From the NCBI GenBank assembly GCA_017979445.1, contig CM030707.1, positions 25,426,586 to 25,490,585 of the forward strand: a DNA stretch of 64,000 nt, written 5' to 3'. The DNA comes from Akebia trifoliata (taxonomy: Eukaryota > Streptophyta > Magnoliopsida > Ranunculales > Lardizabalaceae). A model generated the notes under the pieces. It did not search any database and was not told where the DNA came from. It saw nothing but the letters and a program-made list of their open reading frames with translations. Positions 5,206-64,000 of the stretch are shown piece after piece. The position numbers and the translations under genes are program-made. Within the stretch, counting starts at the first letter, position 1. Each line of letters begins with the position of its first letter.

Positions 5206-5220
5206 ACCCATTAGCCACTG

Positions 5221-5489: not shown

Positions 5490-5522
<33 letters not shown>

Positions 5523-42260: not shown

Positions 42261-44464
42261 AGTTCACTGGTAAAAATAAGAGAGGAATGGATCCGGATTC
42301 TAGTTGTGACTCCACTCTCATACGCATCCCATACCATGTATGAGCTTAGTGGTCCCTACCGTACATCCCAGGATAGTACACCTCTTCGGATGATATGACG
42401 CACTATCCCTTCATAGCATTTACAAACCCTTTAACAGCTCATCAAATAACTATATATATATATATATATTGTTTTTCATTTAAAACAAAAGAGAAATTAA
42501 CAGAACATGATTGATAATGGATATCCAGTTCCTACCATGCAATTGTGGCCCTCTCGGCCTAAAAATAAATAACAGTATTCAGTGCATGCGCTAACATAAT
42601 CTTAAATAAATATGCAACCCTTTCATTAATAACCTGGATATCCCTTCACCAACCTACACACAACATACAATGTAAAAGGCAGACATCACCCCTTGGGTGT
42701 GATTCTGACACTTTACCGTTCATCCCATTTTTTTCATTCTCTCAACATTATCACTTTTCGTCTTTTCAAATCAAACCATTCATTTTCAATATTTCAAATT
42801 CACTCTTGGTCTTTCCATTGAAAACCATTAAGGTTTATTCAAAACGAGGTCCTGGTGATGCACGAGACCAAAGCTGTTAAAAACAAGGAAAGCTGATGAA
42901 AATTTAGCTAAGTGTCGGAAACTTAATTTTTCAAAGTTTTCGAAATTGAAAACGGATTTTTGAAAATGAAAGCCTCAAGCATGAGATTTGACACCATATA
43001 AATTTCATAGTCTAATTCAAGGTAACGCAAAAGTTATTACATTTTGAAAATTTGTCGAAAACGTCGAAATCTACGTTTTGTTCTTAAAACCAAAATTTAG
43101 ATTTTGATAATTTGAGATTCAGATATCAAAACCATTCCCATTGTTCCGAAATGGGGGGTAAAACCATAATTTCATTAAAGACATTTACTTAAATGTTTTT
43201 AATGAAATGAAGGGTGGGAAATCATGTACAAGTCATAAGAAGCATAGCCCAAAGTCAGAAGCTTTTTTGGAGACAATTCTGTCGGTGGCTGTCGGTGACA
43301 GAAGCATCATTCTGTCGGTGGAACTGACACCTCCTGCCGACAACACTGAACCACACGAAATTTTTGGTTCTTCGATCCATTTTTCGGATTTTTCTTCCGT
43401 TCTTCAAATCATTCAACCCACCCACGAGTTTATGTTAAAAACTTGATAAAACATAATCTAGACATCTACTTCTACCATGAATTTTAAATCAAACACCAAA
43501 TTTCTACGATTTAAATACAAACAATAAGTTTTATTTCAAAACCTAAATGCCATTTCAGAAATCTAAAGTTATTAACAATAATTGAAAGTCCCTCACCGTT
43601 GTGGATGCCAAGGGTATAAGCTAGCACTACAAATCAAGGTTGGATGGCTCGAGAGTCGAGGTTGGGCTGGCTTGGATGCAAAATGAGCGAGGGTTTGCAA
43701 GGTATCTGACAACGATGTTCTCCTTCTCCTTTATAATGAAAGATAGACCTAAATCCTAACTCGATGAAGCCCTCGGATGGAGTGTGTTGAGGTTCACTCA
43801 AGTTACCTAGCTGGTTTTTGATGGAGGATGGGGAAAACGAACGAGAATGGACAACAAAAGAGGTGAAGTTGCAGCTCTCTTCGTGGTCGACAACTTTGCC
43901 TTCTTCGTCAAGGTTCAACTCGGCCTCGTTCGCGCTAGAACTTGATGGGAATGGGTTGAAACCCTTGGGTTGGGTAGTGGTTGTTGTTTGGTTCTTTGGA
44001 GAAGAAGAGAAATGAATAAAAAGAACCCAACTTTCTTTTAAATAAGAGGCTTGAGGGTAAACTCGTAATTTCTTTTCATGGTTTCTAGTTTATGCGATAA
44101 CTCGACTATTCAGACTCGAAAACTGATGAATGAATATTCCATTTCGAATAATTTTTCGTTGCGGATCTAACGATATCATCAAAATTTTCTGATTCTCGTT
44201 CTAACGAAATTTCACTATTTTGGGTCCCACTTAACGCGAAATTCGATGATTTTATAACTTTTTCCACCGAACTCGAATTCGAACTTGCTTATAGGCTAAT
44301 ATATATATTCCGATCATTTTGAATCTAATGGCGAAGTCAGTTTTCCTTGAAATTTATCATAACAATATTCAAGTATTTTACTCTAAGTCCCTCCTTTGGT
44401 ATTTTCCTCCAAATCTCACCATTCAACTTCCTCGAGATATGAGTTGAAAATCTAGGGTATTACA

Positions 44465-45288
44465 TGATCGTACCTTACTCTTGGCCAAGCTTTAGTTTAA
44501 GCTTCTGGTTATATCTTAACCTTGGCCAAGCTTATTTTTAGCTTGACCAGGACTAATTTTTGCTTGGTCCAAAGGTCACTCACAGTCAGGCTTATTTTTG
44601 TTCAGACCTTGGTGTCTGTTGGACAGTTACAAGCTCATGTGAGTTCGAATTTTTTTAAGAATAATTACCTTTTAACCCATTCCTTAATAATTTTTCCCCC
44701 AAGAAAATCCATCTCTTTTAATCTTTTAACCTTATTTCAATTCTTTAATAATCCCATAACTTTGGCCTTTTTGTAAATTTTCCTATTCTTCCAACAAAGA
44801 CCTTTGGTTAAATTGGTCTCCCACATGAGTGTAATTATCACTCTAACCCAATATTGCTAAAATCAAAGTTAAGTAGTTTACCTTTATGCCCCCCCAAGTC
44901 TATCCTCAATCTTAGAATGATCAATGTAGTTAGACCAAGTTCCATGGTTTGTAATAATTTTGCCCAACTTATAAATTTCTCTAGAACTTGTGAGTAAAGA
45001 CTAAATTAACTCGAGGTTGTTAAAGAACTATTTATGTTAGATGACCTTAATATTCAATATTCCAATTCTTATTTACATGTCATCTAGTTTAATTTCTTTT
45101 TGATTGACTCAAAACCAATGACCTAGGACCTTTCAACCATCTTCAAAGAATTTTTTAAAAACTATGACATTTTAAAATCCTATCTTCTTGATCATCATGA
45201 TTGGTGAGACCTATATGTGAGTGAAAGAACATCAAGTCCAAGGAGAGAAGAGGTAATTTGGATTTTCTTAAAAATATTGGGAATCTTA
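44465..45288. other. Noncoding stretch with CTTGGCCAAGCTT repeats
   Basis: 44474-44600 has several copies of TTGGCCAAGCTTA / GCTTGACC. Otherwise AT-rich, with no gene or border. Confidence 0.45.
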
Positions 45289-45518
45289 GGGCCTGTGTGG
45301 ATACACCTCTCCGTGCAAGAGGAAAAGCTCAATCACTCCCTGCAAGAGCAAAAAATCTCTCCGCGGAAGAGCAGGTCTTTGAAGCTTTTCCACAAAGAGC
45401 AAAAAACCTCTCCCCGCAAGAGCAAAAACCTCTCCAGGCCAAAGTAAAAATCTATCCAAACGTTTGCTAGCTCCCCGCAAGAGTAGAAGTCGTCAAGAAG
45501 CTCTATCCAAACGCAGTG
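45289..45518. mobile_element. Tourist-like (PIF/Harbinger) MITE with internal repeats
   Basis: Left end GGGCCTGTGTGGATAC and right end (complement) CACTGCGTTTGGATAG are imperfect inverted repeats of the GGCCTGTTTGGA type, flanked by TTA on both sides (45286-45288 and 45519-45521). The interior repeats CTCCCCGCAAGAGCAAAAA-like units of about 20-25 bp some six times, which is unusual for a Tourist element. Short open frames here are by-products of that repeat. Confidence 0.6.
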
Positions 45519-45521
45519 TTA

Positions 45522-48500
45522 GACTTTAGGACAAGTTTATCCTCAAGGATTTCTCAAAATTCTATAAATAAGACCTTTATCTAAGGTAAAATGAGGGAGA
45601 AGTTCATTTGGTGATTTAAAATTTTGTTCAAATCTCTCTAAGTCTTCCCATTTTCTCAAAATCTCTTTAAAAATTCCTAGAAGCTCAACTTAAGAACAAA
45701 AATAAGAAGAATGACAAAAGGAAGAAGAATAAGGTGGGGTTAAACCCCTTATTCTCCCCCTCTAATATCCCATTTCTTATTATCCCCCATTTTATTTTAA
45801 ACATTTTTCATATTTGCAAATTTAATTTCATACTTCTTAATGTAGTCTTTTAGATCTTTAGTCTAGAGGCTTGGAGAGAGAAAGTAATCCCCCTTTGAGG
45901 TAATCTTCTCCAATAAATTCTTAATAAGTTTTTTGAGAGCATTATATTAGATTACTTTGCATTCATTTACTCTTACACAATTTAATTTTTATAACATAAA
46001 TGTTTTTAATTTCTTGTAATTTCAATTTTAGAATAACTGTCTTTTATCTTGCTTCCTTTGATGATAATAAAGTTAAAGAGTAAACCCTCATTAAAGGTAA
46101 CCTTCTCTTGATAAGTCAATCACATGTATCCACTTTGCACATAGTCACTTCTAAAATAGTTACAATAAAGAGTGTAGGTCCTTATGGACCTATTTTCAAC
46201 CTTTAAAATCAACAAAAACAATAAAAAAATGAACAAAATCTTATGCATAGTCTTGATTCCTATATAGTGTGGTTCAAACCATGAACCTCATTAAAAGATC
46301 AAACTAAGAAATAAAGTTTCCCTAAGGAGCACATAAAATTATTTTGAAGCTTTGAGACTTCAAATGATGAGATCCATGTGAATTTTCATTAAAATTCCAA
46401 ACTCACAAAAAATTCCAACAATCAATATTTCTATTTTAGCTTACTTATTAGTTTAAATCTTCCATTTAATAAAATTAGACTATAATTCTTTTAATTTTCT
46501 CTATACTTTTTTTTATTTTCAAAATCCAAAAAGAGTTTTCCAATCTTCACCCCTATAATTATATAGTAGTAATCATTTTAGGATAGGAGGGACAAGATGC
46601 CGAACACCTTCTTTATCCCTCAATCGAACCTTCTTGCCTTAGATTATTTAGATAGATAATTTTTCCTTATCTTTTGAATGTATGAGTCATTACAAATTCA
46701 AAAATAAATTAAAAAAATATATTTTTATAATATCCATTCACACTTTAGTTGAATGGTAGCGACTCTTAAACTCGTGTAGATGATGTCAAATCTCTCTGAA
46801 GATTTCGAAGTCCACCTATCTACACTTATTTTTAATTGATCTAAGTCAATGACAATGGACGGTCACTGAACTACCAAAATTTGAATGGTGAAATTTAATT
46901 ATAGTGTTGACATGACGCTCTTTGCATCGTTTAAACCATGCTACAAGGTGCTATAAGATAATTGTACTACATGAGATATGCTTCTTTTTGATACTTGTGC
47001 AAAGCTAATTTTTCAACCAATCATAGTGAGACATAAGACACATCAAAATCTATGTTACCATGGAAGCTAAAATGTTCCAAAAGATGTTTGGTAACTAATC
47101 TAAGCCCAAGAGTTAGTCCAAATTGTCGGGAGGCTCGAGTTCAAAGACCGCGTAGCATAGCCAAAGCTCCGAATCAAATATGTTCATGGAACATCCTGAC
47201 CTCCAAGCTCAGGGGTAATCTCAAGTTTGTTGGAACAATTATTTTTTGTGTGTAATCAGGATGCCCAACGACTTCAGGGAAACATTATTTAACGATAATT
47301 TTATAAACTAAGAGAAAAACAATGGAAAAAAGTAGGTGAATTTCATTCAATTAAATCCTAGTTGATAAATTTTTTGACTTAGACGTGATGCAATTTGCAT
47401 ACAATTCGAGGTCACCGTCAATGGATTTCAAAATTATGAAGGATCGTAGATTTTTTACTTCCACAATTTGGCATCTTTCATAAAAAAAACAAAAAATACA
47501 TCTATGCCAAGGACCAGAAATGATGAATCGACTTTGACCAATCTGTTGCAAGAGATGCACCAACTACAAACACAAGGTGAGCACAGCGTAGTAGGAAGGG
47601 ATAGCCAAACAACATTACAAAATAAGAACTAGTCGAAGAGAAAATGAGGACATCCATCAAAGGCGTGTAAGAAGATCAAATCTAAGGGGAGGACCCCTAG
47701 ACCAGTCCAAAAAGTGCTTATGGGATTCAAGGTGAGAGAGTAGAGCAGTAGTTGCAAATTGTCGACTCTGGGGGCCTGGCTCGGGCACGAGAACCTATGA
47801 AACTTATAAACACTGAAAAATAAATTTTTTTTTTATTTTAAATTAAAAATTAATATTTATTTTTTATTCTTTATAAAAATATTAAATATAGCTCTATAAC
47901 TCGGTCAAATTTCTGAGTCGATAGGGTTAATTACCAAGCAAAGTTGGCTAAGTCGATGACTTCACTCAATGATTTGCCAAATTGACCCAACAAGTTATTT
48001 CCATTGAGTTCGGTATGGAGTCACCTCGAAATACACTCTTGGCTAGTTTTAAAACCATGCCATAACCCATAAACCCAAAAGAGGGCTCCACATGGTACAC
48101 AATGAAACCCATGCAGTTGAGTGGTTATGTTAGTGACTGAAGTACACGATCTATTAAGTTATCACTTACTCACGTTGTCGGAGCCGGCCATTGAAATGGA
48201 CTATTGTGATCATGCATGGTAGGTATATATACGAACAGAGAGATGTTAAGTTCAAACACGTTGGGGTTAGAAATCAAAGTTCTTTGCATAATCCAATTCA
48301 AAATGTTGGACAATTTTTTCAAACCCAAATCCCTCCAGGAGTAGAAATTAGACAACATGCACAAGAATTTGGGTTTAAAGGCTGCACATGCAGGGAAATT
48401 GAGTTTTCTATATAAAATAATTTAAGAATTTCATACTTAATTTTAACTCCTTTAAAAGACTTCAACACAGATGAAAGATCAAAGATTGAAGGGTAACGTA

Positions 48501-49509
48501 GGACAAGTCAGAGATGAATGGGATATTTACGAAAAAGTGATCAACTTTTGACGAATTTACGATTTCAGTTCACTGTTCATTTTAATTACTTAAATATGAA
48601 CGAAAACGACTTCAGAAGTTTTTTAATAATTTCGTACGTTTAAAGGGACTAATTGGAAATACTCACTTTAAACTTGCGAAATTGTCACTTTAAAATCACT
48701 GAATTTGTTACTGTTCTAAATTATTTATTTATTAATGAAAACATAATCATTCATGTTTTGATAATTAAAATGAATAATTAGCCAGAATTGTAAATAACTC
48801 ATTTTCAGGTCATGTAAGGTAATTCACCTCAGATTAATTCCTGGATAAGAGGGAAAATATATGATTGGAATAAGTTGAAAAATACAGATTTCCTAGGGAT
48901 ACATTTTGCTAGACATGACATTGACTAGGCCACTTTCAAATTGCGCTGAAGATTATTTCTACAAATTTTATGATTAAAGGCCAGTTTAATAAAGTTCTAC
49001 AAACCAAAAACCCACATACGGCCACTATATCTACACATGTTTGTTAGACATTTTATTTTAAAATAGTATATATATATATATATATATATAATTTTTTTTT
49101 TTAACTAAAAACAACATGATTTTTTTTAAATTTTTTCTAAGATCTAATTGCACTAATCACACAAGTATACTTCACCGCATAAATTCTCTTACTTCATTGC
49201 GTTTTCCACTAATATTTCTTTAAAACAAAAATTCTAAGGAGAGTAGAACAGGAATGTGACAAAGAAAAATGAAAGAAGCTGACCTGTTGGTGGATAAACT
49301 TGGATATAGATGATGAATGATGAGTGATGATTGGAAATTATCGAATAATAAAATTGTTTAGTGTGAATCTTAAAAATTAGGACTCAAATATTTTTATCCC
49401 TATTTACATAATTTATTTTTATTTATTATTTATTTTTAGCTTTGTTTAATTTGAGAATTGAATAAATCATGAATTAAAAAAAAAAAAAAAAAACAGTTTA
49501 TATATATAA
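45522..49509. other. AT-rich noncoding stretch
   Basis: No supportable gene. A frame near 47515-47600 (RNDESTLTNLLQEMHQLQTQ) might be a retroelement Gag remnant, but there is no second motif. A (TA)n tract lies at about 49067-49090. 48130-48215 repeats sequence found at 36430-36560. Confidence 0.4.
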
Positions 49510-49749
49510 GGACAGATCATGAGACGTAAGTAAAAATATATGTAAAAACAATGTAGTAATAATCATTTTTTAAAATATGGATTAGAAATTTCAGATTGAA
49601 CTGATTTGTTGTGAGGATGATCTCTATGATAAGAAGAACATCCAAAAAACAAAAAAAAAAAATTTTTTTATTCAATCCAAAACTTTTAATTTATATTTTG
49701 AAAAATCTGACTTTTACATATGTTTTTACTTATGTCCCATGAACCATCC
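49510..49749. mobile_element. Old, diverged fold-back MITE
   Basis: Left GGACAGATCATGAGACGTAAG and right complement GGATGGTTCATGGGACATAAG, with the AAATATGGATTAGAAATTT..GAACTGATTTGTTGTGAGGATGATC core recognisable as a decayed version of the Mutator-like family core. Flanked by TA-rich DNA. It is clearly older than the copies at 2-7 and 34-36 kb. Confidence 0.6.
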
Positions 49750-51089
49750 AAATATATATTATATATATAATAAATAAGATTTTGAGAAGAGGATAATTTA
49801 TAATTATTTGCTGCTTCAAATTTTAATTAGATAATGCCTCTCCTGTAACATCATCACTCTCTCATATATTAATTTATGAGTACCTTCCCTAGTTGAATCA
49901 TCTCATTCCTTCTCAGTCCTTTTTGTCAATAAAAATAAATAAATGATTCTCGTTGACTACGACCAAGACATGGATTGATGACCGCCCATACATGGACCAA
50001 TCTAATAAATTCAAACCATTTAGTCAATGATTCCACAAAATCGATTCCCACACCAATCTTAATTAGATGCTAACTTCATCAACCTCTTTGTCTCTGTGAA
50101 ATGAAATGATAGGGATAACCCTTCATTTAACAGGACATGTGGAGCAGAAATATTATACTCAGTGTCATAAGTTATTAGTTCTATAGGATAAAATTTTGAC
50201 TAAATTTTGGCTCTACACGTGGCAGAATTTCAGGGGGACCGGAAGGATATGAGGGATTGTATTCCAACATAGTTCAACCCCAAGGTACGTACGTGCCGTG
50301 CAGACAGCTCAACTTTACTGAGTTGAGCTGATGGGTGGGACAAGCCCAATAATTTCTATGGTCGGATTGGGAAAGTATCCCAAGGATCTAGGAATAGTTA
50401 ATTGTGTATGTAGATGCGCGTGTGAGTTTAGTGGTTTGAATCTTTTCTACTTGGATTTGGGAGTCGTTACCATTCAAAGAGTTTAAGGTGTTAATGGACA
50501 CCATAAAAAAAATATATTTTAAGATTTTTTTTGGGATGAATTTAGTGACTAAAAAGCAATCCAATCAAGAGATTGGAAAATGTGTTAGGTATCCCATCTT
50601 ACCTATCAAGTTGACTGTTACCAAGGTATTGGCCAAAATTGAAGATTAAGACTATTAAATTTTTTTGTTGTTGAGATAATTAATATGATGATGATGATAA
50701 TGATAATGTATGGATGAATATATATGCATGGTAAAATGGGTGCAAGTGTGTATGTGTTATGAGATATCCCCACTAGTTGGGCTGTGTTTGTTTGTTTTGA
50801 GTTGGGAGTGTTTATCTATAATGAGAACACTCTTTTGATTATAGCATTTTTGAATGAAAATGTACTCAAAATGAGTTTGTTTTTTTGTTAGTGAGGTCCT
50901 AAGAGGCTTTCCATTAGTTGGAGAGTGTCTTTGGAATCTTCACCTCATATGAATGCATGAGTAGGTGTAAGTGCAAATGTGAAATGTTTGTAAATGTTCT
51001 CTAATGAATTTATTATAGACTTAGAGAGGGAGATTATCTCACATGAAAGATTACTCTCTAACTACCCTTGCCATTCAAGAATGCTTATA
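49750..51089. other. AT-rich noncoding stretch
   Basis: No gene, RNA or element border recognised. Confidence 0.4.
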
Positions 51090-51450
51090 CACTACATGAT
51101 GCATGTAAAGCTAGAAAGAAACTTAAAACGGTCTTAATGATGGTAAGGGTCCTCCCATAAGGGGATGAACTCTTAACCAATTTTTGCCAAAAAAAAATTA
51201 TTCTTCATGATATGAGAGGATGAAAATGAAAAGACTTTCAAGTAGCTTTTCCCAGACTTATAGATGGTAAAAATCCTCTTACAAAGGGATTAACTCATAA
51301 CCCATACTTGCTAATGAAAATTATACTACATGATTGCAAAACTGGAAAGAAACTTAAAAATGGACTTATAGATTGTAATTATCTTTCCTTAAAGGGCTTA
51401 ACTTTCAATCCAAACTTGCCCATGGAAATTATGCTATATGATTGCAATAG
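51090..51450. repeat. Diverged tandem repeats, about 110-125 bp
   Basis: GATGGTAAGGGTCCTCCC..GGGGATGAACTC (51138), GATGGTAAAAATCCTC..GGGATTAACTC (about 51264) and GATTGTAATTATCTTTCC..GGGCTTAACTT (about 51371) are three copies with matching context (CATGATTGCAAA, GAAAGAAACTTAAAA). Confidence 0.7.
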
Positions 51451-51759
51451 AGTAAATCTTAAAGAAATAAAGTGAGAGGGGTAGAAGAGGGATTTTGGGG
51501 GGTATGTAATTATAGCAAAAACATAAAATTAATGTAATCCTACATTGGTCTTCTTCCTTCTTCTTAAAGCTTCAAAGCACTTGAAGTGGTATATTTATAG
51601 CTTTAGAAGGTCTCTCCTTTGCATTAGAGAGGTCCTCTATTTATTATCCTTTGAGAAACCCTCGGGGGATATAAAGGTCAAAAAGCCACAAATTCAACTT
51701 AATTACAATAACATCACAAAGACCTTGATTACCCTCAATCAAAAAGTCATGGATAGTCA
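51451..51759. other. Left flank of the copia element
   Basis: No LTR or gene motif before 51760. A frame entering from 51545 joins artificially to the Gag region. Confidence 0.4.
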
Positions 51760-51802
51760 TAAAGAAGCACATGATGTTGGAGATAAGGAAGAGTCCAATG
51801 TG
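51760..51802 (+). mobile_element. Stub of the copia 5' LTR
   Basis: TAAAGAAGCACATGATG and the following GATAAGGAAGAGTCCAATGTG match the start of the 3' LTR (62791 onward). Only about 43 bp remain before Gag sequence begins, so most of the 5' LTR, the primer-binding site and early gag were deleted. Confidence 0.6.
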
Positions 51803-52360
51803 CCTATACAGGCCAAAGGGAAAAACAAATCTAACAAGGGAAGCAAAAATTGGAAAGAACAAGGGGGTTCATTATTTAACTCTCAAGGGTGTGGATTCAC
51901 TCAAGCAAGTCAAAGGAAACAAAATATTCAATCTGAGAAAAACAAAAAGGGTGCTCATACCTTAAACAAATAGGCACAAGGGAATTCATCCCCACACACC
52001 GATCTTCCTCTATGCCAAATCTGCAAGAAGCCTAGGCATGATGCCCTTCGGTGTTGGAATAGCTTCAATCATGCATGCCAGGCTGAAGAAATACCCCAAG
52101 CTCTGATTGCTATGTCAATCACTGATCCATACGATCCAGAATGGATCCCAGATACATGTGCCACATCCCAGATGATGAACAATGCAGGTATACTCCACTC
52201 TTTATCTCCTTATATTGGGTCAGATAAAATTCTTACTGGGAATGGTAATGCTCTGCCTATAATTCACATTGGTAGTACTACAATTGCAACTTCGCATGGA
52301 AAACTAAAATTGGAGAATGTTCTTGTTGTACCTAGTATTACCAAAACTTGCTCTTAGTTA
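51803..52360 (+). pseudogene. Copia Gag nucleocapsid and protease, broken
   Basis: A Lys-rich Gag stretch (KGKNKSNKGSKNWKEQ) is followed after a stop by the zinc knuckle CQICKKPRHDALRC (CX2CX4HX4C; the usual Gly before His is Arg). Then EEIPQALIAMSITDPYDPEW and the protease active-site motif DTCATSQM follow (family DTGATSHM, the catalytic-loop Gly is Cys), with a GNALPIIHIGS..LKLENVLVVPSI segment. The domains are in the normal copia order, but Gag's N-terminal part is missing and the protease loop is mutated, so it is inactive. Confidence 0.85.
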
Positions 52361-52429
52361 GTCAAATGAGTGATGATTATTCATGTCCTTTTGAATTCAC
52401 TTCTGATGGATTTGTGAGCAAGGACAAAT

Positions 52430-53450
52430 AGGCGGGCAGAATTTTGGCAAAGGGACCTAGAGATGGTGGACTGTATACTTTAGAAAGGAACACAACAAAT
52501 AAGGCACTTTATTCGTCAAGCCAAAGGAAAACTTCTGAAGATATTTGGCATCAATGGTTAGGTCATCCACAGTCCAAAGTGGTATCTTTTCTAAACTCTA
52601 AGAATTTTATTTCAGTTACTGAATGGAATAATGGAATAAGAGTGGTTCAATTTGTTCTAGCTGTCAGTTTGGAAAAAGTATTAAACTTCCTTTTGTTATT
52701 ATTCTTGTTCGCTCAGACAAGTTATTTTATAAAATACATTGTGATCTTTGGGGTAATGCACCTATTCCTTCTGTTCAAGGTTTTCATTGCCGTGTATCTT
52801 TTGTGGATGACTGTTCACGATACACTTGGATGTTTCCTTTGAAGCTGAAGTCTGATTTCCTTGAGTTCTTCATAAATTTTAAGAATATGATTGAAAATCA
52901 ATTTCATGCAAAGATAAAAATATTTCAATGTGATGGGGGTGGTGAGTTTGAGAAATTGAATTTCTTCAGCTGCTACTTGATAATGGCATTGTGAGACAAC
53001 TTTCTTGTCCTAAAACACCTGAGCAGAGTGATGTTGTTAACGCAAACATAGAAATATTGTTGAGCTAGGACTATCAATGCTCTTTCCCAGTGGTATTTCT
53101 AAGAAATATTGGGTAGAGGCTCTTCATACAGCTTTTCTCATCAATCGATTGCCATCTCGAAAGTTGAACATGGATTCACCATTTAATATTATATTTGGAA
53201 AGCACCCAGATTACACATCTCTCTGTGTAAATGTCGTTATCCATATTTGTGAGAATACGGAAAAAATAAAATTTTCCCAAAATCTCTTCCATGTGTTTTC
53301 ATCAGGTATAGTATTCTTCACAAAGGATTCAGATGTCTCTTTCCTGAGACAAGGAAAGTATATTTCAAGGCATGTCATAATTGATGAAACTACTCTCCCT
53401 TTCTCTAATAATTCTATGAATACTAGTGGTGATTCTTTATAGGGGAACAT
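52430..53450 (+). pseudogene. Copia integrase, frameshifted
   Basis: The pre-integrase block reads GPRDGGLYTLERNT and IWHQWLGHPQSKV. In shifted frames follow the core motifs: IHCDLWGNAPIPS with the first catalytic Asp, VDDCSRYTWMFPLKLKSDF, FQCDGGGEFEKLNF with the second Asp, and KYWVEALHTAFLINRLPS. At least three frame changes are needed to follow it. The C-terminal GKYISRHVIIDETTLPFS is the known end of the integrase region. Normal enzyme joins the cDNA to host DNA; this copy cannot. Confidence 0.85.
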
Positions 53451-54910
53451 GTTATTTTCTCTACCTTCTCTGAATGGGCAAATGATTTCTACACTAGAGC
53501 CACACCTTTTTATGATTATGCACGACTTATTGTTATCCCATGTGTACTTTCTCCTCTGGAATAAGATAACTACTCCAACAATGAATGTACTTATGATCTC
53601 ATTAATCATGCCTCATCAGGAGCATCAAATCCATCAATAGTTGCTTTTACAAACTTGCCTGCCAAAGCCATCTCTTCAAGTACATCATCTTCTTCTATGG
53701 AAGACACTACAACCACAACACTATCACCCCCTTCTACCTCTAGTCCATGTGATGAAAATCGACTTGCTATTGATCCTCGACCTATAATGGACTCTGCACC
53801 ACAAGATTTTATTGCAATCACTCCTAAGAATTGTAGGCTTTTACTCCAAAAATGTCCAACCATCCTTCAACCCAAGGATAATCCTGGTCGTCATTTGAGG
53901 GTTAACACCCATTGTATGAAGACTCGAGGAAAGGCTCGTGTTGGCCTTCTTCCTTCCCCTTCATCCTCAATTCTAGTTGAGCCAACCACTATTGGGTCTG
54001 CAATTACTCTTTCAGGATGGCTCTCTACCATACATGAGGAAATACAAACTTTGCTTGGTAACTCGACATGGGACTTGGTACCACGACTCCCTGATATGAA
54101 TGTTGTAGGTTGTCGTTGGGTTTTAAAAACCAAGTTGAAATCTGATGGTATTGGAAAGAATCAAGGCTCGTCTTGTTTCTAAGGGTTTTAATCAAGTACC
54201 CAATGTTGATTTTGATGAAACTCCAGTTATTAAACCACATACTATTCATCTTGTCCTCTTCCATCACCCTTACCATGCAATGGAACATCAGGCAATTAGA
54301 TGTCAAAAATGCATTCCATCATGTTTTTTCTGAAAGGGCCTGTGTTTATGGAACAATCATCTGGTCTCATTGATCCCGTCAATCCACATTATGTTTGAAA
54401 ACTTTGACGTGCTCTTTATGGCCTCAAACAGGCTCCGAGAGCTTGGTTCGACTGCTTTAGCTAATATCTACTTCATTTCGGGTTTCACTGTAGAATACAT
54501 GATCCATCATTATTCACACGTAATTCTCAAGGTGTTATTATCTTGCTACTTTATGTCGATGATATCATCCTTACGGGTAGCAACTCTTCTCTCTTAGATT
54601 CTTTCATTCAAAGCATTGGACAAGAATTTGCTATGAGGGATTTGGGAAATTTACATTTGTTTTTAGGAATTGAAGTTCAACCCACATCTACTCGTTTACT
54701 TATTTCTCGAGGGAAGTCTGCTCGTACTATTCTCACACGTGCTGAAATGCTTGGTTGCAAACCAATCTCTACTCCTCTTGCCACTAGGTTTGATTGTGAT
54801 CAACAAAGTGCTCCTTTTTCAGATAAGTTTTATTGTAGTTTGGTTGGTGCTTTGCAATATCTAAGCATTGCTCGCCCAAACATATCCTATGCAGTGAACC
54901 TTGTTAGTTA
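53451..54910 (+). pseudogene. Copia reverse transcriptase, frameshifted and split
   Basis: After a linker (53650-53950, Ser/Thr-rich) come TRGKAR, STWDLVPRLPDMNVVGCRWV, KARLVSKGFNQVPNVDFDET, the RQLDVKNAFHHVF block in another frame, then YVDDIILTGSNSSL at 54549, AMRDLGNLHLFLGIEV and PISTPLATR, ending ARPNISYAVNLVS followed by a TAG. The catalytic YVDD is intact in the last frame, but several frameshifts precede it. The CACTA element at 54914 interrupts the domain, and the pol sequence continues at 62168. Confidence 0.85.
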
Positions 54911-54913
54911 GTA
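54911..54913. repeat. CACTA target-site duplication, left
   Basis: GTA, repeated at 62165-62167. Removing the element and one GTA gives AGTTAGTATATGCATGCC, which is the expected copia pol sequence (S-stop-Y-M-H-A, where family members have SQYMHA). Confidence 0.85.
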
Positions 54914-55020
54914 CACCACGTGAAAACCACAAAATTTGATAAAATTTTTTTTTAGACAAGGCCTGACGAATTTTACGACTCAAATTCCGCGGTCATTGGA
55001 CCACGAATTTCATGGTTTTT

Positions 55021-55116
55021 CTCCCATTAAACCCATTCTGCTGCGATTCCAACTCACTCACTCCATCTCTCTCTCTCTCTCCCCCATTAAACCCATTCTG
55101 CTGCGATTCCAACTCT
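55021..55116. repeat. 60-bp tandem duplication near the CACTA left end
   Basis: CCCATTAAACCCATTCTGCTG occurs at about 55023 and 55083 (60-bp period). The sequence resembles a plant 5' leader. Confidence 0.8.
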
Positions 55117-55118
55117 CC

Positions 55119-55128
<10 letters not shown>

Positions 55129-55174
<46 letters not shown>
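55129..55174. repeat. (CA)23 microsatellite
   Basis: Uninterrupted CA dinucleotide run, preceded and followed by CT-rich DNA (55065-55300). The open frames over it are low-complexity artefacts. Confidence 0.95.
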
Positions 55175-55177
<3 letters not shown>

Positions 55178-57155
55178 TGTGTTTCGCTCTCGATCGATCT
55201 TTCTCGATCTCATCTCTCCGTCTCCCTTTATCTCATCTCACCCTCGATCTCTCTTTGTATTTGATTACTCACTCTCTCTCTCTCTCTCTCTGATTAGTAG
55301 AAGTTATCTCTCGATCTCTCAACATTGGAACGATGGAGTGAAGAAGAAGCCATTAACCTCTTGAAATTTCTCTGTTGATTTTTAAGGTGAGTCTATCTCT
55401 CTTCTCTCTCTCTCTTGTTGGTAGATCCATAACCCCGTTCAAATTGTTGAAGATGAAATCTAGGGTTCCCAATTTCACAAAATATATTAGTTTTGATTTT
55501 TTATTTTCCAAATGTGTTTATTTTGCTTCATGAAGAAAAATCTAAGAACAGATAAACATTTGATTATACATCCCAAAGATTTTATAGATCTGAGTGTTTT
55601 GATATTGTTAGGACTTTTGTTCTTCCATTAATCCACTAAAGATTGAAGTAGTTTGAGTTAAACTCATTTGATTTGAGTTTCAACCATTTAAATTAAAATT
55701 TCCTTCTGTAAAATCTGTGATCGCAACCTTATGATTAGAATGGTCTGCTGCTAGCTACTAATATAATGAAGTAACAGGTGAAAAAATCACTTGAATGTTT
55801 GGTCTCATTAAGGATGAGGGCCGAAAGCCTATAAAATATAAATAGGTATGTTTAAGCATGTTTTAGGTACTTAATTATTTGTTCAATTTCCAAATTAGAA
55901 ATCATAATTCCACTTCTTGACTTGAGCATTAGTATTGGAGTTTCTTTGCCAGCTACTCTTTTGAAGTGTATTTTGAGGTGGAAAAGAAGATTCAAGATCG
56001 GAGCCTTTCATGATGACAAATCTGAGGTATGTGGATCGAAATAATCAGTGGCTTAAATAGTTTTATTTAAAAAACTTCTTGAATATATTTATGTTAATTT
56101 ACTACCAGAATAATGATGAAATTTGTGAACCTTATGTGTAGGAAATATATTAACTAAGCCTAGAAGATTGGAGATTGACAAGCTGTGTAATTCAGGTTGA
56201 ATGCAATTTTTTTATTTTTTATTGGGCTGTTTGTGTTCTTATTGTTATTTGTTGTGAGCAAAATATCCATAGATCCACATTCCTTCTTCAAGGGATAATA
56301 GACGAGAATCAACTCTTAAGAAGAGTTGGGTATGTCTAGTTGTCTGGTTGGACCCCTCTTCGTAGTTTCAAACATATTGTTTTATGTTCTCAGTTGACTC
56401 TCTCAAGTCAGCCTATGCTATTTGTTTGATACTGCTACACATATTCCCCATTGTCTATTCTCATCTAGAACTCAATCTCAATAAGCTAGCCTGGTTGTCT
56501 TAGTTACTTTATTATTGATATGCTGAGATTGTAACTGAATCTTGGTTCTACTACTTCCTTTCAATGTTTGACACATATTTGGGTCATATTTATTTCAAAT
56601 TCCAATAGGCATTTGGGTCATATTTATCTTGAATTCCATCATGTCAGCCCTATGAGAAGTATTAATAGGCATATCATCTTAGGATTACACTATACTGATC
56701 AAAATATCATGAAGAGGAGGAGAACCAGTTCATGACCTGTGTGTTTTTACATTATTTGCTAATGGAGCATTTGTCTCTTTGCATTGTTGGGATGTTTCTT
56801 TGAAATCTATTTGTCCTGATATGTTCATTGCTTCATCCTTTTGTATTTAGCCCACACTAGATGTTGGAACAAACTTCATACTACTAACAACAACTTACAC
56901 CCCATTCTCTTGTTTGATAACCAATCTAAAAAAAGTACATACATATCATGAATTCACTTATTATTTTATTATAGGATTGAGATCCAAGATTTAATATCAT
57001 ACATGCTGTATTACATATTAATTCATTGCAATAAAAGATGGGCAATTGTAATAGATAGTAAATTAATTAGTTTTTTTAAATAACAAATTTCTTTAATTTT
57101 GATGAGTTGCATTTAGGTCCTTCAAAGTTCTTTGACTCAAATGTTTTATCTATAG
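55175..57155. other. Interior of the CACTA element without identified exon
   Basis: CT-rich leader-like DNA to about 55430, then intron-like AT-rich sequence. An exon-like segment bounded by TTGCCAG and GAG|GTATGT at 55954-56030 was not identified. No transposase motifs found. Confidence 0.4.
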
Positions 57156-57251
57156 GTTCCCTGGAAAAGTCTAGGCAAAGAACCTGTTATTGTTCTTCTT
57201 GACCGCATCTTTGTTCTTGCGCATCCTGCTCCTGATGGACGAGCGCTCAAG
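57156..57251 (+). pseudogene. VPS13-like (chorein) exon fragment 1
   Basis: Acceptor TTATCTATAG and donor AAG|GTATGG bound 32 codons: VPWKSLGKEPVIVLLDRIFV, then LAHPAPDGRALK. This matches the N-terminal chorein region of plant VPS13 proteins (KVPWKSLGKEPVIVLIDRVFVLAHPAPDGR), which transfer lipid between membranes. The reading phase continues directly into the next two exons. Earlier exons with the MFE start were not found. Confidence 0.85.
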
Positions 57252-57368
57252 GTATGGAATATTAATTTTGTTAATTCGTTGGGGAAGGAATTTTTTTTTT
57301 TTTTTTTCTAGTTATTACATACTTTGCGTTGAATTAGAGTTTACTTCTCTTTTCATAATTTCGTGTAG

Positions 57369-57416
57369 GAAGAAGACAAGGAAAAACGTTTTGAAGCCAA
57401 ACTTCAATAGATTGAT
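57369..57416 (+). pseudogene. VPS13-like exon fragment 2, with a nonsense mutation
   Basis: Acceptor CGTGTAG, donor GAT|GTGCAT. Reads EEDKEKRFEAKLQ, stop, I-D, matching the family's EEDREKLFEAKLQQIE. The stop is TAG at 57408-57410 where the family has Gln (CAG), a single-base change. This alone shows that the copy no longer encodes VPS13. Confidence 0.8.
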
Positions 57417-57910
57417 GTGCATATATTTCATTAATATGGCTCATATTTTGTTGCATTTTGAAGTCCATTGTACATGATATTGTTTCTCTACTATTTTCGT
57501 CTCAATTAGGAGAATTGGTGTTTGCTTTTGGATTTTGTGATTTAATTATGCTTTTATTTAGTAAGTAAATCAGTTTCTATGAAAGCATGTTCTAGTACTT
57601 ATGCATTGAGATGTTTTTATTGGTTATCCTTCTATGTGATGTGGTCTGAATGAATAAAATATCTGTCACGTGTCCTACTTAACTTTGTTACCTTTCATGA
57701 GGAGTTGTCAACTTAACCCTTTGAAAGCCTCTTTTTATTTGAGATTAAGTTGTCACATCAACATGGATTACTTGTTCGAACGTTGCTAATGTTCTTCTGT
57801 CCTACTGTTGCGTTGTATGAAGCTCTGAGGATAATAATTAAGTAGCGCTTGGTTCTAATGCTATTTAGCTCATTCCTCTTTCAAATTTCTTGATTTCTTT
57901 GTGCACATAG

Positions 57911-57961
57911 GAGGTAGAATCAGCAACCCTTGAAGCAAAGGCTAGATCTAAGATGGGAAAT
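57911..57961 (+). pseudogene. VPS13-like exon fragment 3
   Basis: Acceptor GCACATAG, donor AAT|GTAAGC. 17 codons EVESATLEAKARSKMGN match family EEAESATLEAKARSKLGN, in phase with the previous exon. The next family exon (PPPGNSWLGSL..) is not found; LINE-derived sequence follows instead. Confidence 0.85.
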
Positions 57962-58039
57962 GTAAGCCTTTTTTTCCCCTATCTATCTTCCCTTTTGTTG
58001 GAAATACAATTGTCTATCTTATAAAATAGTCACTCGTAT

Positions 58040-58850
58040 TATTCAACTTTATGTTATTGTTGATTTGATCACCCAATACACTTCAAACAAATTGAAGACA
58101 TAGTTCCATGTCTTACTCACACAACTAGATTGAAGAAGATGGTTCACAGTCTCCCTGTTTGTTGTACACATTAATCACATGCTTGGGATGATAATCTTCT
58201 TGCATATAAAATGATCCGCTGTGAAAATTTTGTTGTGGAATGCTGTCCATACAGCTGAAGATGGGAAAGGAGATTTCCATCATCAACCTAGGCTCTTTCT
58301 ATGCTGCTGAGAATCCCGATCATTGATGTTTCTTCTAAGGCTCAAGTGCCATGATATTGATTTTTGCAACCTTTGGATACAGCCTTTGATGAGCTCTTTC
58401 GACAGAACATAAAAATGTTGGGTAGTCAGTAAATAGAGAGGAGTCTGCACACCATGTCTTCCCAAAATAAGATTTTGTCTCCCAAACCAATCTCATAGCA
58501 GATTCGTTCTTGAGTTCACTTGTTTATTTATTTTTAAATTTGAGGATGCTTTCCAAATGGCTGACCCAGAGGAGGAAGGTACAAGATTTCTATCCCAACA
58601 AATTCCTGCTCCCATACTTGCTGTTTATAATTCTTCTCCATGTACTATTTGGTACCCCCCTAAACCTCATAATCCATTTGCCCAATAAAGCTTCCTGAAT
58701 TTCCCTCAAGTGGTTGAAGCCAAGGACACTTAATTTACCTATGGTGTAGCCTGTCTTTTGTTTAGTTTCTTGTATTTGGGCTGGTTTCCTCAATCTTCCT
58801 TTCCATTTTAATACAAATTTTATTTATCAAGAAAAAAATACCATTCAACA
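58040..58850 (-). pseudogene. L1-type LINE reverse-transcriptase 3' fragment
   Basis: On the minus strand: LGFNHLREIQEALLGKWIMR and WRRIINSKYGS (family LGxxxLxxMNxALLGKWLWRF..WRxVIxxKYG), then GDKILFWEDMVC, SLRRNINDRD, and the zinc-binding-region pattern ending ETVNHLLQ..WNYVFNLFEVYWV (family GESVNHLLLHC..WxxxFxLFGVSWV). This is the C-terminal part of a plant LINE ORF2, broken by stops and frameshifts and truncated at its 5' side. It lies between the VPS13-like and NMNAT fragments, inside the CACTA element, on the opposite strand. Confidence 0.75.
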
Positions 58851-58874
58851 TTTCATATCTGTTTATTTCGGCAG

Positions 58875-59140
58875 AGTAACATCAAAGTTGTAAATGAACT
58901 TGTACCTAACCGGATCAGCTCGACAAGAGTAAGGTAAATGATTTTTTGATTTATTCACAAAATACTGGAGATAACATGAACATGTTGATTAGTATAATAA
59001 CATTGAAAGGGGAGCCTCTTTTTGTTAATCTTTTCAGGGAATGCATTTCAAGAGGGTTATTAGTCAAATATCTTACTGCAGATGAAGTTATTGATTATAT
59101 CAAGGAACAACACTTGTACTTCAATACAAATGAAAAATGA
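58875..59140 (+). pseudogene. Nicotinamide mononucleotide adenylyltransferase, C-terminal two exons
   Basis: Exon one (58875-58933, acceptor TTCGGCAG, donor AAG|GTAAAT) reads SNIKVVNELVPNRISSTRV. Exon two (59038-59140, acceptor CTTTTCAG) continues in phase with RECISRGLLVKYLTADEVID and YIKEQHLYFNTNEK to a stop. The ISSTRxRxCISRG..IKYL..VIDYIxxxxLY pattern is the C-terminus of eukaryotic NMNAT, which makes NAD from nicotinamide (or nicotinate) mononucleotide and ATP. The substrate-binding ISSTR loop is kept, but the N-terminal nucleotide-binding fold is absent. No stop or frameshift within the fragment. Confidence 0.8.
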
Positions 59141-59222
59141 TCACTTGAGTATTAAATTTGCATACCGACCTCCCCGAAATTAATTTGTAACACTAATTGC
59201 ATATCTTCGTATTTGATTTCAG

Positions 59223-59284
59223 TTTATCTCATGCAGTTTATAGTAGCAGCAAATCTTATTGGACTCCCCGCCATTTCAGTCCTT
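59223..59284 (+). pseudogene. Amidase / fatty-acid amide hydrolase exon fragment
   Basis: Acceptor TTGATTTCAG, donor CTT|GTGAGT. It reads YLMQFIVAANLIGLPAISVL, matching the amidase-signature family segment just before the substrate pocket (IMRFVMAANLLGLPAISVPV in plant FAAH as I recall it). Only this exon is recognised; the catalytic Ser-Ser-Lys region is absent. It lies 80 bp after the NMNAT stop, on the same strand. Confidence 0.7.
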
Positions 59285-60586
59285 GTGAGTAGAATGTGTC
59301 TTTGTGCTGGAATTTGTTCTTTGAAGCACCATGTAGCTTCTTCTTTTTTTCCCCTCTGGAATATTGATATGCAACCAAATGAAAAATCCTTTCATGTTAA
59401 GTTTGGTGGAAAAAAAATCTCACACCTTTTAGAGACCATATTAATGGAGTCAAAATGGACCCCTCTTGCATCTCACGTTTTTAATATTTTGTCTATGGGT
59501 GTTGTCAAATTATTGTGCATTTGAATGTTGCTTGGACCTTTGTCACTCTTCTGCTGATGGTTTCAAACTAAAATCCATATAACGAATTTCATATTGATTC
59601 AACAAATTGTGCCTAAAATGGAAGGATTTCCAGCATGATTAGGACAGAGGCAGGATTTGAAGTTCCACAAATCATGGGAGGGGCGAGGACGAACATTTTC
59701 CCCTGCCCCCCTATGCACTCCCCTCCTGTAGGGAAAATTGAAAAAATGCTCTTGGGACCCTTTAGTAAAAAAAATGCGCTTTTATGGTCCTTTGTGGGTG
59801 GGTGTGAATTTTGAAGCACAAAAGAGGCTACTTCCAAATGCACCATCTCCTAAGACACATGTGCAGTGTCCAACACTGATACAAAGCGTTAGGCTGATTG
59901 AGCTTGTAAACATGATACACTGTCATGTCATATGGTTTATTCCTTGTGATAAGAATATATGGTTTTAAAAAAAATTAGTTCACGTTAAGTCATATCTAGT
60001 GTGTTTAAATAGGCTTATATACATTGAAAATCGTACCAAAAAAAAAAAAAAAAATACATAGATACAAGTTGAAAACAAAATATTTGGGTGAGCTAAGATT
60101 GTTTCTTGAAGAAAATGTGTCTCCATGTGTCTAATATTCTGACATGTATGATAGGGTTTTAGACATGGAAAGTTATAAGAAAATGGAGTGACCTTGTTAC
60201 ATAAGTCTCTGCCCAAACGGGAATAAATAACCTTAGGATAATTTTCTGGATTGTCCATAATTCAACGTTTGATACTTCTGGTGGAGTCCATAATTCCACG
60301 TTTGATACTTCTTGTTATCTCTTCTCTATGATTTACCTAAATAGTACTAGTTTGAACCATCATGGTCAGTTGGTTTTATTTGGATGTGCATAACGTCTCA
60401 ATGAATCTGAAGCTTCAGTCATTTGGGTCTTTGAGACTTGGCTTGTTGTTATGTCTGGACACCATTCGGTGTCTATCACTATTGACTGGGATAGGGTCAT
60501 ACAATTTGTTGATTCTATTTTTGTGCAAATATTTATGGCTAGTAAAAATGCTGATTTTACTTCTGTTTTCTTGTTTACTTCCCCAG
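59285..60586. other. Intron-like DNA within the CACTA element
   Basis: No further exon recognised. The 103-codon frame at 59213-59524 only extends the amidase exon through its donor. Includes an A18 run near 60036-60053 and a tandem pair TTTGATACTTCTGGTGG / TTTGATACTTCTTGTTA at 60268-60316 (34-bp spacing). Confidence 0.4.
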
Positions 60587-61164
60587 ATGCGGTTTAATTT
60601 GTGCAAATCTTTTCCACTTCTTACAACTAAGGTATCAATTCTCTTTTAAGATTTTTCTTATCCACTTGCTACATGTTACAATCTCTATAACTAGTTTTTA
60701 GATGGGGTCTAATAAAACTCCAAGATTTAGAAAAGGAATGAAAATAGGTCAAATTTATAGTTTTTAGTTCCACTCTTAGCAATAATATTTCCTATTGGTT
60801 CTTTAGCCCATTTGTATTGAACCCATAAGATTTATCTTGACATGAGCTTATTTTTCATTTATTTTACTTTTGCGATGAAAATTATTCGACTTCCTCTTTA
60901 CACTATTTTTGTTTTTACGATCATAAAAGGGATTTTCATACAATTATATTCTCTTGGGATTGCAATGCCTCCAGAGACTACCTTGACAGGCAACTACTTG
61001 AGCTATCCCACACTGATTAACAATTTTAAGGCACTAGTTTGGTATTACAAATCTGGCACCTTTTTTTTTTTTCTCACACTCTCTCTCAGTATTGATTTGG
61101 TAGACAGGGAAGAGGGTGATCTAGGACCCATATATGGGTTCCAGTGGAGACACTTTAGTGCCAG
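60587..61164 (+). pseudogene. DHFR-thymidylate synthase, exon fragments from the TS domain
   Basis: Exon one (60587-60631; CCCCAG, AAG|GTATCA) reads MRFNLCKSFPLLTTK. A second, about 60920-60989, has KGIFI, then after an insertion [11 protein letters not shown], ending at AG|GC, a GC donor in place of GT. The third (61090-61164; CTCTCAG, CCAG|GTTAGC) continues in phase with [20 protein letters not shown] and HFSAR. These are successive parts of thymidylate synthase (family [51 protein letters not shown]), which in plants is fused to DHFR. The exon between the first two (ending in SGSTNAK) and the catalytic-Cys region are missing, so no enzyme can be made. Confidence 0.85.
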
Positions 61165-62164
61165 GTTAGCTGAAGGAATGTATTAGATATCTCAGTCCAT
61201 TCAGGTTCAAAATTTTAGCAATTATTTTTCTTGAATTCGTGAAGAATTTTTATGTGCCAATATTAATTAATTTGAACATTTATTGATTTGGCGAAGATCC
61301 TGTTTCTTAGATTTCTTGAAATTGGATTTGGGCTGTTTGTTATTCTCAAATAACTTGTTCTTGCAGTCTGACTTAAGACTTTCCTTCAAAAAGGTTAGTA
61401 TAGTTCAATTTCTACATTTTGATTATTCTCACACTCCCAACATAGATCCATTGTAGTACTTTAGGCCACTCTTAACATAGAATCATATTCTAGCACTTTT
61501 GGTAACATATTTCTTATTTTTTAACATTTGTGAATAAAATCTAACAATGTTATTCTATTACTTTGGGTTGATATCTCGATATACCAAACATTTTTCGTGT
61601 AGGTACGAGAGCGCTTATAGGATTTCTTTCAGAACAGTAGTAATGTGGGGGAAATCCAAACCTTGAGGAAAATAAGAAGACACAATAGAACGGAGAGAGC
61701 TAGAAGAGATCAAGGGCATCATGACCATTTGCTTTTAATTATGTTTTATTTCTAAACAATTATGTGATGCAATTTCATTTTTAATTGCCCAATTGCTTCA
61801 ATTAAAGCTTGTTTAGTAATGAAATTTGAATATATAATATGAATTTTGAGTTGTTTAGTTTAATTTGGAGCATGTTTTATGATATTTATTTTGTTTGTTA
61901 TTTTTTTGATTTTTTTTATATTATTATTTCATTTATTGTGATTGGTGAATTAGAGGACCGTCCTAATGTTTGTTAAACCTCCATATTCGACGGCCATATT
62001 CTATGGATTTGTCTTTGAAGCCCATTCTCCAATAATTTGATAGTCCAGGGCTGTCAAAAAAAAAAAAAAAATTTCTACAAGAGAATATTTGATGGGAGGG
62101 TCCGTCAAATTTCTCAAAATTTGACGGGCTAAGACTGTCAAATATGAGTTTTTTTCACATAGTG
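61165..62164. other. Right part of the CACTA element with subterminal repeats
   Basis: One short exon-like segment (TTGCAG, then AAAAAG|GTTAGT, 61368-61391) is not identified. From 61950, TTTGACGG / CCGTCAAA / GACTGTCAAAT motifs repeat in both orientations up to the terminus at 62164. Confidence 0.55.
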
Positions 62165-62914
62165 GTATATGCATGCCCCACTATGTTATATCTGTGGTAC
62201 CTTGGATCTTGGGATTTATATTCATCGTCATAACTCTTTTGACTTATATGCTTTCTCCGACATGGAGTGGGCTGGTTGTCCTACTACTGGGCGTTCAACG
62301 ATAGGATTTTGTGTGTTTCTTGTATCTACACTAATATCTTAGATGGTTAAGAAGCAACATACCGTGGATTTTGTGTGTTTCTTGTATCTACACTAATATC
62401 TTAGATGGTTAAGAAGCAACATACCGTGGCTCGTTCTAGTGCCGAGGCTGAATACCGATCTATGAATGCTGCTGCTGCAGATCTCACATGGCTGTCATTT
62501 TTACCTAAGGATATTGGCATTCTTCTTTTTCAGCCACCTAACTTATTCTGTGATAATGTCGGTGCATTGTACATGTTGATCAATCCCGTGTTTCATGCTC
62601 GCACGAGACATATTGAGCTTGATAACTACTTTGTTCAAGAAAAGGTGGCACTTGGTTCACTCACTACTCGTTTTGTTCACTCCCGACATCAACTTGTTGA
62701 TATTCTAACCAAACCATTTCCGCGAGATGTTTTTTGTGATCTTCAATTCAAACTGGGTGTTCATCCTTCTCATCTCAGCTTGAGGGCGAGTAAAGAAGCA
62801 CGAGATGCTGGTGGTAAGGAAGAGTCCAATGTGCAACAGACTATAGATAAGGAAGAGTCTAATATGCAACATACTCTTAACCAATCCGCAACATACTCTA
62901 AATTGACCCATTAA
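62165..62914 (+). pseudogene. Copia RNase H and pol C-terminus
   Basis: Continues the pol interrupted at 54910: YMHAP, GTLDLGIYIHRHNSFDLYAF, SDMEWAGCPTTGRSTIGFCV (RNase H first acidic site), then KKQHTVARSSAEAEYRSMNA (second acidic site), NLFCDNVGALYML (third), HARTRHIELDNYFVQEKV and HQLVDILTKPFPRD. The SDxEWAG, EAEY and CDN acidic residues are intact, but a TAG and a 62-bp tandem duplication break the frame before KKQH. The last codons beyond about 62780 read into the polypurine tract and LTR, so the 169-codon frame overstates the protein. Confidence 0.85.
62304..62427. repeat. 62-bp tandem duplication in the RNase H region
   Basis: GGATTTTGTGTGTTTCTTG starts at 62304 and 62366, and the two 62-bp units appear identical. 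It adds a frameshift-causing length to the copia pol and must be recent. Confidence 0.9.
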
Positions 62915-63060
62915 CAGAATCTGATCTATTTTTTATATTCGTGTAATATTTGGTAGTTATAGTAGATTAGGATACTCATCTTACCTTTTCTATACAACAG
63001 GTTGTAACCTATAAATATATGTACAAACTGCAACACCTGTCACGAATGTGAGAGATAACA
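62791..63060 (+). mobile_element. Copia 3' LTR (putative)
   Basis: A polypurine tract (TTGAGGGCGAG, to 62790) precedes TAAAGAAGCACGAGATG, which is repeated as the 5' stub at 51760. A promoter-like CCTATAAATATATG lies at about 63008-63021, as in U3/R of copia LTRs. The right end is not clear; 63060 (AGAGATAACA) is a guess. The normal TGT start appears mutated. Confidence 0.5.
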
Positions 63061-64000
63061 AATCTCTATTTTTAAAGTTTTTAAAGTCATTTTCATCATT
63101 TCGAGTCTTTCCAATCATGATAATCAAAGGATATGAGTGTAAACGCTCTAAGGATTCTAGAGAGTTGTTTTGAGGTGAAAGTAAGACTTTGCCCTTCATA
63201 GGCAATAAGTTGGATAAAAAATGGACACAATGACATATAAATACCATCCAAGAGAGGTTCTTAAGGGCCGATTTCTTTGAATCAAGTCTCAACAAGTTGG
63301 GGGTAGGAGGGTATTTGCTCCTAAGTTTTATAGAATTCTTTTTTAAGAAACTTGGTGAAAGTACAAAGTATCCTTGAAGGGTGGCCTTGAATCATGTACA
63401 AGTAGTGGCTTCAATGGTCAATTACCTTGGATTGAGTCTCCACAAACTACAAAGAGAAAAGAAATTGTCTTTTGGGAGGGCCATGTTAGACTTTTAATTA
63501 AAACTATTTGTTTATTTTGGGTTTTCTTTGAATTAAAATATCATTTTGTAGTCCAATTAAATAGTGATTTTTTAAAGAGACTGAATTGCTATTGGCTAAG
63601 GATATTGGGGACCAAGTTGGAAATAATTTCTTGCAATCGAAGAATTTCCATTGATTGGGGATCTTGTGGTTTCCTAAATAAATCAGAGTTCTTATCTTCT
63701 TAGAGTTTCTTCCAATTTGGTGATGGGGTAGAATTGGAAAGGGCCAACTGGTATAATTGGTTCAAATTAATCGGTACATTTCACCGATTGGGTTGGACCG
63801 ATATAGTGGATTTAGTTTGAACAGTCTGGATCAGTTCACCCAGTTACCTGTTGGTTGGATTAAATTGAACAACTCGGGAACACCCATAGTTAGTTCAGGT
63901 CGTGACCTATAGGAAGGCTTCTAGACTCTAGGTTTACTACATGCAATGCAATTTATCTGGCCACTCTTACCCAAGTGCACCTATATACCTCTCGAGCGTA
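63061..64000. other. Noncoding right edge
   Basis: No gene supported. 63760-63900 has repeated TTGGTT / GGACCGAT / CAGTTCACCCAGTTACC motifs and the complement of TATGGGTGTTCCCGAG, which may be hAT subterminal sequence, without a second end in the window. Confidence 0.35.

Follow-up and report, generated by a model that had tools for sequence, protein, structure and literature searches.

A probable non-autonomous Pack-CACTA element carrying pieces of several host genes in Akebia trifoliata

How did exon-like pieces of VPS13, NMNAT, FAAH and DHFR-TS genes come to lie next to one another on one strand of Akebia trifoliata DNA (contig CM030707.1)? The whole 64-kb stretch that was analysed is called the window here. 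An earlier reading of its letters, the original prediction, had placed the pieces in a single CACTA-type transposon. The analysis reported here indicates that they very probably lie in a non-autonomous Pack-CACTA element of 7,251 bp (7.25 kb), which carries pieces of at least four unrelated host (housekeeping) genes. The proposed element is bounded as follows.

54914 to 62164, plus strand: the whole element, putatively of non-autonomous CACTA type with host gene fragments, delimited by its ends, its target site duplication (TSD) and a host reading frame that resumes on the far side of the joint.
54914 to 54926, plus strand: 5' terminal inverted repeat (TIR), CACCACGTGAAAA.
62152 to 62164, minus strand: 3' TIR, CACTATGTGAAAA, in the minus-strand reading, with its outer end at 62164.
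54911 to 54913: TSD, left copy, GTA.
62165 to 62167: TSD, right copy, GTA.

The predicted 3-bp GTA duplication was thus found at both borders. The predicted matching CACTA-type termini held in part: short inverted ends are present, agreeing at 11 of the first 13 bases and at 13 of the first 17, and the 3' end (CACTATGTG) matches the CACTA start, but the 5' end (CACCACGTG) reads CACCA rather than CACTA. Shared 30-bp termini, which had also been claimed, are absent; the likeness spans only about 13 to 17 bp, and beyond that local alignment returned mainly gapped A/T runs. The short TIR is normal for this type of element, because the TIRs of grapevine CACTA families measure 5 to 23 bp, with a TSD of 3 bp where one is stated (PMC2528002). 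A consensus of the ends, CACYAYGTGAAAA, matched the window only twice when at most one mismatch was allowed, and these matches are the two element ends; 0.46 matches would be expected by chance, and two matches were reached in 9 of 100 shuffles. No second pair bearing the element's ends lies inside the window. When pairs agreeing at 11 or more of 13 bases were counted, the window held 184 of them, compared with a mean of 10.4 in a null of first-order Markov windows (60 runs), and a TSD accompanied two of the 184 (54914-62164 and 43494-63357). Because the Markov null and the shuffles yield comparable pairs, the ends and the TSD by themselves are weak evidence, insufficient for claiming an element.

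The element is probably real because a copia-like reading frame continues at the exact insertion points and because short repeats cluster inside its 3' end. Excision of 54914-62164 together with one GTA lets the copia-like frame run on as ...SYAVNLVS-TAG-YMHAP...GTLDLGIYIHRHNSFDLYAFSDMEWAGCPTTGRSTIGF, and the sequence read across the joint is ...AVNLVS-TAG-YMHAP...DLYAFSDMEWAGCPTTGRSTIGF, in which the stop codon TAG at the joint overlaps the GTA duplication. On the left, the open reading frame (ORF) at 54465-54908, which stops at the joint, matched the Pfam family RVT_2 with an E-value of 6.5e-16; farther upstream there are matches to Pol_BBD and gag_pre-integrase and a weak one to rve (four of the eight flank ORFs tested had a Pfam match). 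On the right, the flank was read from its motifs as what we take to be the copia RNase-H region; Pfam and PDB gave no support for this, and a literature search on copia RNase-H motifs returned no paper. With the joint structured in this way, the element was probably inserted as a unit into a dead Ty1/copia-like retrotransposon, creating the 3-bp duplication.

The second line of evidence lies directly within the 3' border.

62036 to 62142, both orientations: subterminal repeats, six exact TTTGAYRG motifs.

The motif was picked after the 3' end had been inspected; of its 27 exact occurrences in the 64-kb window, six fall within the last 129 bp of the element. A subterminal-repeat layout has been described for CACTA elements (PMC8978399), and such direct and inverted subterminal repeats were encountered here at the 3' end only.

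The cargo consists of the following pieces, the last of which was recognised by sequence only.

57156 to 57251, plus strand: VPS13-like exon, VPWKSLGKEPVIVLLDRIFVLAHPAPDGRALK, bounded by ag and gt.
57369 to 57416, plus strand: VPS13-like exon with an in-frame TAG.
57911 to 57961, plus strand: VPS13-like exon, EVESATLEAKARSKMGN, bounded by ag and gt.
58875 to 58933, plus strand: NMNAT exon, presumably the last but one, bounded by ag and gt.
59038 to 59140, plus strand: last NMNAT exon, with its stop codon.
59223 to 59284, plus strand: internal FAAH exon, YLMQFIVAANLIGLPAISVL.
60587 to 60631, plus strand: DHFR-TS exon, MRFNLCKSFPLLTTK, with matches to thymidylate synthase (TS).
60926 to 60989, plus strand: remnant of a DHFR-TS exon whose frame is broken by about 14 bp; GC occupies the place of the donor GT, and the 5' limit is nominal.
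61090 to 61164, plus strand: DHFR-TS exon, bounded by ag and gt.
61367 to 61393, plus strand: exon-like stretch, SDLRLSFKK, bounded by ag and gt.

Splice-bounded, plus-strand pieces of VPS13-like, NMNAT, amidase/FAAH and DHFR-TS genes had been predicted, and all four identities are supported by Pfam matches, PDB matches or both. The joined VPS13-like exons matched the Pfam family VPS13_N (E-value 2.2e-6; 26 bits, below the cut-off of 80) and aligned to residues 68-125 of VPS13 in PDB (E-value 7.5e-4). VPS13 is a very large gene, and the captured portion is part of the N-terminal region only. The two NMNAT exons, taken jointly, matched NMNAT in PDB with an E-value of 3.8e-15 over residues 213-260 of 263, the 3' end of the gene; they had no Pfam match. 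The FAAH exon encodes 20 amino acids and likewise had no Pfam match. Its best PDB matches are two FAAH sequences, presumably from Arabidopsis, with an E-value of 0.013 and 13 of 18 aligned residues identical, the alignment covering residues 538-555 of 636; the next match in PDB is GatA (E-value 1.5), which we take to belong to the same amidase superfamily as FAAH.

The DHFR-TS exon at 60587-60631 matched thymidylate synthase in both PDB (E-value 0.017) and Pfam (E-value 0.014). The two later TS pieces, at 60926-60989 and 61090-61164, were absent from the original prediction and are newly recognised here. Together they matched thymidylate synthases in PDB with an E-value of 2.2e-11 at best, and bifunctional DHFR-TS 1, presumably the Arabidopsis protein, with an E-value of 2.5e-11; the exon at 61090-61164 alone matched the Pfam family Thymidylat_synt (E-value 3.2e-4). 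In the remnant that ends at 60989, KGIFI is read in one frame and a further stretch of residues in another, about 14 bp apart. TS residues from about 300 to 328 (DHFR-TS 1 numbering), which would be expected between the first exon and the remnant, were not found. The stretch at 61367-61393, with the residues SDLRL, could represent a further TS exon, although it is too short for this to be claimed.

That several unrelated loci contributed is borne out by this inventory, in which part of VPS13, the 3' end of the NMNAT gene, a single internal exon of FAAH and internal DHFR-TS pieces lie within about 4 kb. The four pieces could hardly represent one collinear ancestral locus, because the stop codon of NMNAT is only 82 bp from the FAAH exon and because only part of VPS13 is present. 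The fragments do share a single orientation, the plus strand, as had been predicted; this is not evidence of design, because four fragments would agree by chance with a probability of 1 in 8. Of the 16 exon edges examined, 15 carry AG or GT and the remaining one carries GC; splice sites guided the choice of these edges, and the count excludes the 5' edge of the interrupted TS piece. Introns and splice sites are retained in the VPS13, NMNAT and TS pieces, which points to capture from genomic DNA and not from cDNA. The in-frame TAG in the second VPS13 exon, the interrupted TS exon and the missing TS stretch suggest that the fragments are decaying rather than coding.

No transposase had been seen in the element, and a Pfam scan of its 125 ORFs of at least 30 amino acids, with E-values up to 0.05, agrees: none carries a transposase domain. 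Binding and cutting at the ends and the subterminal repeats would then fall to a CACTA transposase encoded outside the element. Besides VPS13 and TS, the same scan gave weak matches to seven families on the plus strand, the best being La (E-value 0.013), and Pmp3 (E-value 0.0018) and F-box (E-value 0.019) on the minus strand, each in one ORF and all near chance; the Pmp3 match could not be placed, as it was not among the 11 of 67 minus-strand ORFs that were rescanned singly.

A cargo of this kind is likely to have been assembled by several capture events, or by neighbouring elements that fused and then lost their inner ends. The latter route follows the published Pack-CACTA model, in which tandem insertions fuse and inner ends are lost (PMC8903248; PMC13317346). 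Inner relics of CACTA ends were sought between the fragments, and none beyond chance was found: the best candidates had 6 and 5 mismatches in 17 bases, compared with 4 to 6 in 20 shuffles each. This lack of inner relics neither proves nor excludes the fusion model.

Several observations weigh against a Pack-CACTA element. The 5' end departs from CACTA by one base in its first five. Under the Markov null, end pairs with a 3-bp TSD arise 0.27 times per window, with at least one pair in 14 of the 60 runs, about a quarter. The CACTA duplication is given as 3 bp in one source (PMC8978399) and as 5 nt for rice and maize in another (PMC8903248), and the GTA found here differs from the latter. An in-phase continuation across the joint would arise by chance one time in three; the 57-residue piece after the joint had no Pfam match and no meaningful PDB match, and the next ORF (62405-62911) had no Pfam match. 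Exact TTTGAYRG is absent from the first 250 bp of the element. The assignments of the FAAH exon and of the first TS exon are each based on 15 to 20 residues, and the fusion route, with no inner relics, leaves no direct trace here.

Some of these points would suit a chance pair of ends, in which case the region would be a patchwork of pseudogene pieces, introduced through double-strand-break repair or the activity of other transposons, and no single mobile unit. The rate of such pairs under the null, the second pair with a TSD in the window and the want of Pfam or PDB confirmation that the right flank belongs to copia all speak for this explanation; it is nevertheless very improbable, given that the copia-like frame is in phase at exactly both points and that repeats lie directly inside the 3' end. 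Carriage of the fragments by a Helitron, or by another superfamily such as PIF/Harbinger or MULE, is the least credible of the alternatives, as CAC..GTG ends and a 3-bp GTA duplication are present. Helitrons are rolling-circle elements, and we know of no TIRs or TSD in them, whereas a TIR and a 3-bp TSD were found here; MULEs make duplications of about 9 bp. It is true that Helitrons and MULEs likewise carry multiple gene fragments (PMC3288121; PMC8903248). For PIF/Harbinger, the duplication would be expected to differ, being TTA or TAA in most PIF elements of rice and maize (PMC8903248) and GTA here.

The remaining alternatives concern transcription, for which two further features, both with one arbitrary limit, may be considered as candidates.

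55050 to 55386, plus strand: CT/CA-rich, leader-like stretch, a candidate non-coding first exon with a donor-like AAG|gtgagt; its 5' limit is arbitrary.
61603 to 61830, plus strand: candidate terminal exon and 3' untranslated stretch, with an ag just before 61603; its 3' limit is arbitrary.

A fused transcript from the element, as the original prediction had envisaged, is possible from the arrangement of these sites. Under idealised splicing the third VPS13 exon is in frame with both exons of NMNAT, and the resulting frame, which starts with ATG, has 56 codons. This frame, together with the CT-rich leader-like stretch and the donor-like site upstream, would favour a functional chimeric gene whose leader lies inside the element and which yields a fused VPS13-NMNAT peptide. 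Such a gene has a very slim chance of existing, slimmer even than that of a fortuitous end pair: the second VPS13 exon has an in-frame TAG, the TS exon is broken, no in-frame ATG precedes the first VPS13 exon in the single leader path tried, the agreement in phase has a 1 in 3 chance, and the peptide would be merely the C-terminal end of NMNAT. A broader possibility is that the element is transcribed as an independent unit, with a leader donor after 55386, a terminal acceptor before 61603 and the cassette exons of four genes between them, producing chimeric RNAs that include the 56-codon VPS13-NMNAT peptide, or small RNAs against the four housekeeping genes; this is doubtful, if less so than the functional gene.

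The non-autonomous Pack-CACTA element remains much the best explanation. Its fragments are now probably mainly passengers, and, upon transcription, the kept splice sites should allow the pieces to act as cassette exons of chimeric RNAs, for the most part non-coding, as is seen for Tgm-Express1 of soybean.

Other features were noted in and around the element. In its 5' part, an imperfect 60-bp tandem repeat (CCCATTAAACCCATTCTGCTGCGATTCCAACTC) is followed by about 23 CA units (55020-55139). An exon-like stretch at 55953-56026 had no PDB match and no Pfam match. Between the VPS13 and NMNAT pieces, minus-strand ORFs at 58338-58823 (LLGKWIMRF..WRRIINSKYG, GDKILFWEDMVCR) resemble what we take to be the tail region of a reverse transcriptase from a plant LINE; those ORFs that were tested had no Pfam or PDB match. 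The right flank contains, about 137 bp past the element, two identical 62-bp copies in tandem (62304-62427), an exact duplication that may be recent or an assembly artefact. Farther away in the window, a tandem array at 32835-33215, with a 107-bp unit, 3.6 copies and 91% matches, includes three of the 27 TTTGAYRG motifs and is perhaps part of another element. At 2487-5522, small repeats with units of 12, 27, 12 and 2 bp recur twice, about 2,060 bp apart, which suggests a larger duplication. Pfam gave no match for ten larger ORFs from other parts of the window, and no Rfam family was found in the window at gathering scores.

A literature text search returned, among the matches listed, none of the three 13-base terminal strings and no title about transposons; no publication naming this gene combination was among the matches listed, and such a search cannot show that none exists. 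By itself, the element alters no general view. It offers a clear multi-gene Pack-CACTA case in which the sequence of the host retrotransposon reveals the insertion points, and, if earlier-stage copies exist in the same genome, the order of capture could be shown, which would test the published fusion model.

CACTA elements with pieces of more than one gene have ample precedent, and the kind was already known from soybean, maize, rice and wheat; the present case adds a further example. Among other carriers of gene pieces, maize Helitrons are unlike it in being, as far as we are aware, rolling-circle elements without TIRs or TSDs; they are like it in that each element can hold multiple gene pieces, acquired step by step (PMC3288121). 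CACTA gene capture has also been described in grapevine (PMC2528002) and Chenopodium (PMC8978399), and for wheat chromosome 3B 140 CACTA-mediated captures and 17 genes potentially derived from exon shuffling are reported (PMC4290129). The Pack-CACTA (Pack-TYPE) elements of maize, rice and Arabidopsis share with the Akebia element the TIRs and TSD, the pieces of coding genes and the lack of a transposase; theirs are grouped in clusters of copies, with a 5-nt TSD in rice and maize (PMC8903248), whereas here the TSD is 3 bp. The closest resemblance in architecture is to Tgm-Express1, the CACTA element of the soybean wp allele, which packs five unrelated gene fragments into 5.7 kb, with exons and introns, inverted-repeat ends and canonical splice sites (PMC1947982). 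The two differ in their genes and host plant, and in their setting: Tgm-Express1 occupies an intron of a gene that is expressed and has proven chimeric transcripts (PMC1947982), whereas the Akebia element, with no known transcript, sits in a broken copia-like element.

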